A stretch of DNA of 64,000 nucleotides from Pirellulales bacterium (lineage in GTDB: Bacteria; Planctomycetota; Planctomycetia; Pirellulales; JALHPA01): the NCBI GenBank assembly GCA_033762255.1, contig JANRLT010000040.1, positions 1 to 64,000 on the forward strand. Reading direction: 5' to 3'. Below the pieces are notes generated by a model. The model made no database searches, had not been told where the DNA came from, and saw nothing but the letters and a program-made list of their open reading frames with translations. Each line of letters starts with the position of its first letter. Within the stretch, counting starts at the first letter, position 1. The position numbers and the translations under genes are program-made. Below, one piece after another: positions 50,717 to 57,402 of the stretch.

Positions 50717-50790
50717 TTGAACAGGAGTAAGCAGCGAGAGCGGAGGAAATACAAATCTCTTCTCTGCTACCTTCGCTACCTCCTGTTCAA
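50717..50790. repeat. inverted repeat R6, compact copy
   Basis: TTGAACAGGAG at 50717-50727 is exactly complementary to CTCCTGTTCAA at 50780-50790. Pairing continues imperfectly inward through AGCAGCGAGAG and GTAGCGAAGGTAGCAGAG words. The same AACAGGAGG(N)AGC...AGAG word flanks the GxxExxY remnant at 56605 and 57155. It may act as a terminator for fba. Confidence 0.75.
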
Positions 50791-50910
50791 TTGCATTTTG
50801 AACAAAGTAAACAAAGGGATCAAAGAATTGCCGAAAACTTGTTTTGTTGACTTCGGTGCTTTTTGTGAAGTAACGATTCGGCATTTCTGACTTTCACCGG
50901 GATTTGGCTG

Positions 50911-56604: not shown

Positions 56605-56640
56605 TAACAGGAGGAAGCGGAGGAAGCAGAGAAACAGCAG
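56605..56640 (+). repeat. R6 arm left of the GxxExxY remnant
   Basis: The word TAACAGGAGGAAGCGG continues AGGAAGCAGAGAAACAGCAG. It is the inverted partner of the arm at 57155-57185; together they enclose the GxxExxY pseudogene. Confidence 0.75.
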
Positions 56641-56702
56641 AAAGCTTTTAAGTGAATATTTATCCGATCATATAGTTAGATGCTGTTTGGCGGAAGGGTC
56701 AT

Positions 56703-57104
56703 TGGTCCAGAGCCAGGTAAAATCAATCGCGACACACCATCGACCAATCGTTCGGCATGGAAATTGATAAGTCAGCCCAATGGAATATTCAATCACTTCA
56801 TATAAGACAAGGTAATTGTCTTGTGAATCGGGATGACTGTTTCGACTGCCTTAACTTCCACTAAGAGTGCTTTGTCAACCAAAATATCAAAACGTAACTC
56901 TTCCGTGCGAAATATGTCCTTATATTTAATTTTTAACGATTGTTGGGACTCAGTTTGATAACCACGCAGCTTTAACTCATGGCGGAGCGCCCACTCATAA
57001 ATTGATTCGATTAATCCGGGCCCAAAATAACGATGTACTTCTATTGCCGCGGCGATTGTGGGTCCTGTAAGCTCTTGTGCCTGAGGAAAAAGTGGATGCA
57101 TCAA
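56703..57104 (-). pseudogene. GxxExxY family gene with two in-frame TGA stops
   Basis: The first 103 codons (MMHPLFPQAQELTGPTIAAA, IEVHRYFGPGLIESIYEWAL, LLVEVKAVETVIPIHKTITL) match the GxxExxY family, including the G-x-x-E-x-x-Y core (GLIESIY). The frame then meets TGA at 56793-56795. The same frame continues LNIPLG, a second TGA at 56772-56774, and LINFHAERLVDGVSRLI, the normal C-terminal end of the family. The full gene would be ~125-130 codons. Members of this family are small nuclease-fold-like proteins of unknown role. The gene is probably broken; sequencing error or UGA read-through are alternatives. Confidence 0.75.
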
Positions 57105-57154
57105 TTCAACCGGATAAAAGTGCCCGTCGGGTAACTATTATTGCACAGAATAAA

Positions 57155-57185
57155 CCACTCTGCTCCCTCTGCTTCCTCCTGTTTA
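57155..57185 (-). repeat. R6 arm right of the GxxExxY remnant
   Basis: On the minus strand this reads TAAACAGGAGGAAGCAGAGG and continues GAGCAGAGTGG. It is the inverted copy of the arm at 56605-56640, 515 bases away, with the GxxExxY remnant between. Confidence 0.75.
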
Positions 57186-57402
57186 AAATGTATTTTTGGA
57201 ATCTCAAAAACAAACAATGTCATCTGGGAATTTTATCCGGCATCAGGCTCAATCCCTTCACAGTCCGCCTTCAATAGCCGCGTTGATCATATTGTACGTT
57301 AGGCTGTCCGCGCGCTGGTAATCAGGATGCATAGAGCTTAAAAAAAAGGTTGAAAAAATCCTTCGTTAACTTCGTTTCCTTTTGTTTTTATATTTCCCCC
57401 CT

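Follow-up and report, generated by a model that had tools for sequence, protein, structure and literature searches.

GxxExxY genes are associated with inverted arrays of short periodic repeats that flank them. This association is strongly supported and general, extending well beyond the 64,000-nt stretch of planctomycete DNA analyzed here (the window). We propose, with a probability of roughly 0.5, that the gene and the arrays surrounding it form one element, whose nuclease would read its own repeat dialect and enable the element to spread. The nuclease would bind the 7-mer unit of this dialect in one or both inverted arms, where a recurrence every 8-10 nt would place successive units slightly under one helical turn apart. 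The arrays, usually two in inverted orientation, could fold back on each other and would be cut by the nuclease; repair or replication would then excise, copy or move the element. Dispersed gene-less hairpins of the same dialect would be its non-autonomous relatives. DNA binding, cleavage and cleavage-driven movement are the steps of this scheme that we infer.

Two copies lie in the window, both in a dialect here called A: one has a decayed gene (56606-57183), the other is a solo hairpin (50720-50787). The relevant features are:

50720-50746, plus strand: left arm of the solo hairpin, dialect A, a gene-less relative
50761-50787, minus strand: right arm of the solo hairpin, dialect A
50801-50825, plus strand: second-dialect array, GAACAAAGTAAACAAAGGGATCAAAG, adjoining the solo hairpin (as read from the sequence)
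56606-56632, plus strand: left array, three 9-nt modules AACAGGAGG-AAGCGGAGG-AAGCAGAGA, dialect A, downstream of the GxxExxY gene
56721-57104, minus strand: GxxExxY gene (TIGR04256/PF13366), decayed; the frame is open over 56793-57104, and two in-frame stops interrupt the tail past the catalytic residues
57157-57183, minus strand: right array, modules AACAGGAGG-AAGCAGAGG-GAGCAGAGT, dialect A, upstream of the gene and inverted relative to the left array
57361-57386, minus strand: second-dialect array, CAAAAGGAAACGAAG.., about 180 bp past the right array

A preliminary description of this DNA had placed a GxxExxY remnant between inverted copies of a repeat, and both arrays are indeed present, within 1-2 bp of where it had put them. 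As read, the 27-bp arrays are AACAGGAGGAAGCGGAGGAAGCAGAG(A) at 56606-56632 (plus strand) and AACAGGAGGAAGCAGAGGGAGCAGAG(T) at 57157-57183 (minus strand). The best flanking inverted alignment at the locus spans 39 nt, and CCTCCTGTT is found 4 times in the window against 0.33 expected. The same repeat, said to occur alone near 50717-50790, corresponds to the gene-less hairpin at 50720-50787, whose DNA fold is far stabler than those of shuffled sequences (z=-4.4). In profile searches, the open frame 56793-57104 scores above the curated cut-offs for both TIGR04256 (E=1e-25, 90 bits versus 35) and PF13366 (E=4e-24, 86 bits versus 22) and belongs to the GxxExxY family. When the gene is read through, profile positions 2-115 of 116 are matched (6e-32) across two in-frame TGA codons. 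The apparent lesion looks like two nearby frameshifts of opposite sense. It lies 3' of the catalytic D...ExK; with the catalytic D and ExK upstream of the damage, the window copy is thus mildly decayed. Its neighbors are, going by sequence, what we take to be a glutamine-amidotransferase (pabA/trpG-like) gene and a short ABM-like gene.

Linkage between gene and repeats was measured by aligning the 450 nt upstream of each gene to the reverse complement of the 450 nt downstream, scores of at least 20 being counted as strong. Approximately 90 GxxExxY loci were sampled in planctomycetes and 88 were scored. Strong flanking inverted repeats were observed at 54 of the 88 (61%), as opposed to 3.8% of cross-locus pairs, 5% of 218 ORFs picked at random in these loci and 2 of 28 ParE toxin genes (7%; p=2e-7 versus GxxExxY). 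About 40% of GxxExxY loci fall below this threshold. A second set consisted of 80 loci from GTDB species, mostly non-planctomycete (75 scorable) and favoring the CRCRRAG clade; it spans cyanobacteria, several proteobacterial classes, Bacteroidota, Chloroflexota, Acidobacteria, Verrucomicrobia and archaea. Here 56% of the 75 loci score at least 20, against 9% of cross-locus pairs, and the arrays often lie no more than 60 bp from the gene. Thus, the suggested link of GxxExxY genes to a family of repeats is strongly supported in the phylum and recurs in this mostly non-planctomycete set.

The arrays are built of 7-mer units, typically CRCRRAG or CRCRRAT, one per 8-10 nt. A single grammar comprises many dialects; among those found in the arms are ACCACAGAGGCACAGAG, CCACGAAGGACACGAAG, ACCGCAGATGAACGCAGAT, CCGCCAAGACGCCAAG and CCACGAATTACACGAATT. 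Units of the form CRCRRA[GT] number 6.6 per 500 nt around GxxExxY genes, 1.1 around genes of the S23 family (see below) and 1.25 around ParE genes; a fixed-window periodicity score was by itself too weak to use. The two arms agree at 95% of unit positions and at 58% of spacer positions, a contrast partly built in by the definition of the unit. With arms alike at units and unlike at spacers, the unit itself seems to be constrained.

Protein clade and repeat word go together. Unit changes were counted on a tree of 170 GxxExxY proteins and compared to shuffles. For the unit class (last base G versus T/A), 3 changes suffice on the tree, versus 16-23 in shuffles; for the exact 7-mer, 64 are needed, versus 89-100. 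Different protein clades in one genome carry different dialects (genomes G011, G063 and G170), which makes a composition effect acting throughout the host genome less likely. In raw counts, proteins having Leu after the GxG have units ending in G, 117 to 0, while T/A-ending units accompany 22 of the 28 other proteins. An independent-pairs test of the Leu/Phe residue beside the motif yielded too few independent contrasts; this association (117:0 versus 6:22) is therefore taken as a clade-level one and not as pointing to a specificity residue.

Residues D68, E78 and K80 are invariant in two alignments of GxxExxY proteins. No PDB entry has a detectable sequence relationship to the family. When a planctomycete relative (L234) was modeled with AlphaFold2 (pLDDT 95), the closest fold in the PDB was that of Cas4 SSO0001, followed by lambda-type exonucleases, at moderate similarity (TM near 0.5, E near 1e-3). 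The modeled core fold and the D...ExK residues would place GxxExxY in the PD-(D/E)XK nuclease superfamily, as a minimal predicted nuclease that resembles the Cas4/lambda-exonuclease family in fold and in its putative catalytic residues. It differs from that family in being mostly free-standing, at 120-150 aa. A published pipeline called a GxxExxY domain where another tool called a cas4 gene (PMC8934634). Weak, partial matches to Cas4 and to phage-defence-candidate nucleases, covering part of the nuclease core, were returned by PADLOC. Among GxxExxY copies at one site in the genus of genome G064, dN/dS is 0.07-0.20 where computable, showing that the protein is maintained by purifying selection. 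Since, in addition, the dialect follows the protein tree, the protein is likelier a functional partner of the repeats than the passive cargo that the preliminary description had seen in it.

In the 5.47-Mb genome from which the window derives, the dialect-A 18-mer AACAGGAGGNANCNGAGG has 38 copies (at most 1 mismatch), against 1 for the reversed pattern. The consensus consists of modules that recur every 9 nt; positions 10 and 19 are nearly free and their neighbors nearly invariant. Many copies of the word form imperfect palindromes, about 60-80 bp long. The loops of these hairpins are unrelated to one another (mean score 5.57 versus 5.00 for shuffles); recent copy-paste of whole hairpins in this genome, which would leave shared loops, was rejected. 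Profile searching identified only two GxxExxY genes in the genome. The other one is intact (L002, C14:114691-115032); the word flanking it, GCCGCAAGAANNGCAAG, also has a 9-nt period but differs from dialect A, and it is likewise scattered (23 matches versus 1 for the control). Hence the two genes carry two words, each dispersed genome-wide, and most repeat copies have no gene and lie far from GxxExxY genes. Because of the latter point, the mobile unit with terminal inverted repeats and one cargo gene that had been proposed for the window is only part of the architecture; the bracketing of the gene by inverted repeats stands.

Two further features of the own-genome repeats were recorded. A second dialect, ACAAAAGNNAACGAAGG, accompanies dialect-A arrays, being found no more than 220 nt from 13 of 23 A loci; there are 4 matches in the other 58.8 kb of the same loci (L003-L032). 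Separately, the first 9-nt module has a free base at which the two arms of a hairpin never agree (0 of 9 tabulated hairpins, L005-L032); the base again disagrees in 4 of 4 further hairpins inspected by eye, where about 32% agreement is expected. The disagreement might reflect avoidance of perfect palindromes, although the observation is post hoc and the sample small.

Across 197 genomes of the phylum, TIGR04256 genes are present in 92, with 0 to 15 copies per genome. Arrays were counted in the same genomes as the triple array CRCRRAGNNCRCRRAGNNCRCRRAG, which covers some dialects only: it occurs 1359 times, against 25 for the reversed pattern. Genomes with a GxxExxY gene have on average 13.9 triple arrays and those without have 0.8 (about 18-fold). 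Two or more were found in 55 of 92 gene-bearing genomes and in 8 of 105 gene-less ones (p=1e-15, kinship among genomes being ignored). The arrays far outnumber the genes, so most of them lie away from GxxExxY genes. The preliminary description had counted repeats away from the gene against a link; such repeats are indeed common, yet gene sites and gene-bearing genomes are very strongly enriched.

Occupancy of orthologous sites varies. One site was compared in the genus of G064 (17 genomes), where the element is old. G064 itself is occupied, the gene and its arrays taking up 845 bp. In G203 the gene sits between two complete hairpins, in G198 there is a single hairpin and no gene, and in G045 the site is empty, with 39 bp in place of the 845 and flanks that are 97% identical. 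Several congeners of G064 have the gene at this site, and the empty site in G045 may therefore be a loss. A gene enclosed by a pair of inverted hairpins could be lost through their recombination, with one hairpin left behind, as would fit G198. The window interval gives a second case: in the same-family relative G211 the two neighbor genes are about 125-150 bp apart and the element is absent, as compared to about 850 bp in the window. Empty sites, which the preliminary description had proposed to look for, thus exist for both occupied loci (G064 versus G045, window versus G211). The target-site duplications that it had also suggested are not in evidence at the G064/G045 junction, where the flanks have diverged. 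Dispersed copies of the G064 word number 45 in G064 itself and still 27 in G045, where a family search found no GxxExxY gene (controls 0). Six region pairs of these two genomes were compared for newly moved solo hairpins; three were unaligned at the guessed positions and a fourth was partly aligned. No such case was seen in them; the comparison showed shared solos as well as changes near repeats. These changes look like recombination between repeats or IS110 insertion, and recent hairpin transposition between G064 and G045 is not claimed. Carriage of GxxExxY by phages was considered and rejected, viral contigs having given only 4 distinct relatives.

A comparable arrangement surrounds an unrelated protein. 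Genes for S23/four-helix-bundle proteins (TIGR02436, L125-L154) are dispersed in planctomycete genomes, 8 of them in the window genome, and are also bracketed by inverted periodic repeats: 57% of 30 loci score at least 20, against 2% of cross-locus pairs. Their words differ from GxxExxY words and mostly have a 7-nt period (GTGTCTG, GGTTCTG, GGTAGTT). The S23 proteins are presumably not nucleases. As their genes share the array architecture, a nuclease is not required for it. The S23 family is possibly a parallel system with a 7-nt period.

This parallel and the unrelated loops, which are unlike those of recently copied MITEs or REPINs, are the weakest points of the one-element reading. The former keeps alive the alternative that the hairpins are spread by other machinery (a transposase, a reverse transcriptase, host replication or repair), GxxExxY being merely carried along as in a composite transposon. 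The S23 genes have the same gene-between-inverted-arrays plan, gene-less copies far outnumber genes and persist in G045 without one, and the gene of G203 lies between two complete hairpins, all as such carriage would have it. We nonetheless consider it unlikely: it does not lead one to expect a shared word family, whereas GxxExxY and S23 loci differ in words and periods, ParE genes are without flanking arrays, the word tracks the protein tree rather than the genome, and purifying selection acts on the gene at one site throughout the G064 genus. Alternatively, the arrays could be operator-like or structural sites for GxxExxY, serving autoregulation or a chromosomal function such as the processing of folded DNA in replication, and not be regularly mobile. 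Constrained units with free spacers and loops, arrays within about 60 bp of the gene at many loci, purifying selection on the protein and the failure to see recent hairpin movement between G064 and G045 would all agree with fixed sites. Variable occupancy inside genus and family, related genes in many phyla and in archaea and a copy number of 0 to 15 per genome are, however, more typical of mobile or selfish DNA, and we give this possibility a rather low probability.

A role in defence or addiction, with the nuclease restrained or guided by the arrays and targeting foreign DNA or stabilizing its own locus, would suit the Cas4-like predicted fold, the matches found by PADLOC and the patchy distribution of the family. 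These matches are weak and limited to part of the nuclease core, and the dispersed gene-less hairpins would be left unexplained; we regard such a role as very improbable. Finally, the arrays are short and of low complexity, and short purine-rich words resemble each other, so that inverted matches might be expected from composition alone. This explanation is refuted by the reversed-pattern controls, which are near zero, by the far lower cross-locus, random-ORF and ParE values and by the tracking of the protein tree by the dialect.

The closest published analogy to the one-element reading is REPIN-RAYT, in which REP doublets forming hairpins co-evolve with REP-associated tyrosine transposases (PMC3116915, PMC8266576). 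Both systems have a gene bracketed by cognate repeats, a repeat type that co-varies with the protein clade, and dispersed gene-less hairpins of two inverted arms. They differ in the enzyme, since GxxExxY (PF13366) is of the predicted PD-(D/E)XK type and not an HUH/Y1 tyrosine transposase, and in the repeats. REPs are 20-40 bp long with GTAG/CGTC tags (PMC3733652); GxxExxY arrays consist of AACAGGAGG-NAGCRGAGG modules or of CRCRRA[GT] units and, by inspection, have no core so tagged. Further differences are that GxxExxY loops are not shared and that the genes occur across phyla and in archaea, with 1-15 copies per positive genome of the phylum. The GxxExxY-array pair, belonging to another enzyme superfamily and having another repeat design, is not a member of the REPIN-RAYT group but may work alike. 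S23p/IVS elements, regarded as selfish, consist of a small four-helix-bundle gene (TIGR02436) between inverted repeats (PMC4990558). They share this layout with GxxExxY elements and differ from them in protein fold and location: IVSs reside in rRNA genes, whereas GxxExxY elements are dispersed, and the window locus encodes a TIGR04256 protein and lies between protein genes. Inverted ends around one gene and gene-less relatives are also found in MITEs and IS elements with terminal inverted repeats. The GxxExxY element, unlike these, is without a known transposase or a visible target-site duplication, and its copies share arrays, not interiors.

In the open-access literature, which was the scope of our search, GxxExxY has two mentions, both in passing, and PF13366 has one; no paper was found with any of six example repeat words. 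A widespread family without an agreed function now has a concrete partner, a word that can be read beside each gene, and periodic repeats of a large class (CACAGAG.., CACGAAGG.., CGCAGAT..) are offered an origin. We tentatively suggest, at somewhat less than even odds, that GxxExxY represents a new class of selfish element found in both bacteria and archaea, in which a stand-alone Cas4-like nuclease would specifically read, cut and spread inverted arrays of a short word recurring roughly once per helical turn, protein and word would co-evolve as a two-part code, and the S23 family would provide a parallel. Should the nuclease read its word, this would be a second, independent invention of a REPIN-RAYT-type partnership between a repeat and a dedicated enzyme, and hundreds of natural enzyme/word pairs would be available for specificity studies.

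Some rearrangements near the arrays were also recorded. Dispersed arrays mark rearrangement points between G064 and G045 (L321-L324): G045 lacks a 3.1-kb segment that in G064 lies between direct arrays and carries serine hydrolase, DJ-1/PfpI-like and cysteine-rich genes; beside another array there is an IS110-like gene. At the GxxExxY site in G197 (L244), the outer CCACGAAA arms enclose a palindrome of another, GC-rich type (GAGCGGGTCGGCGCTAGCC..), which looks like a further repeat nested within a solo element.
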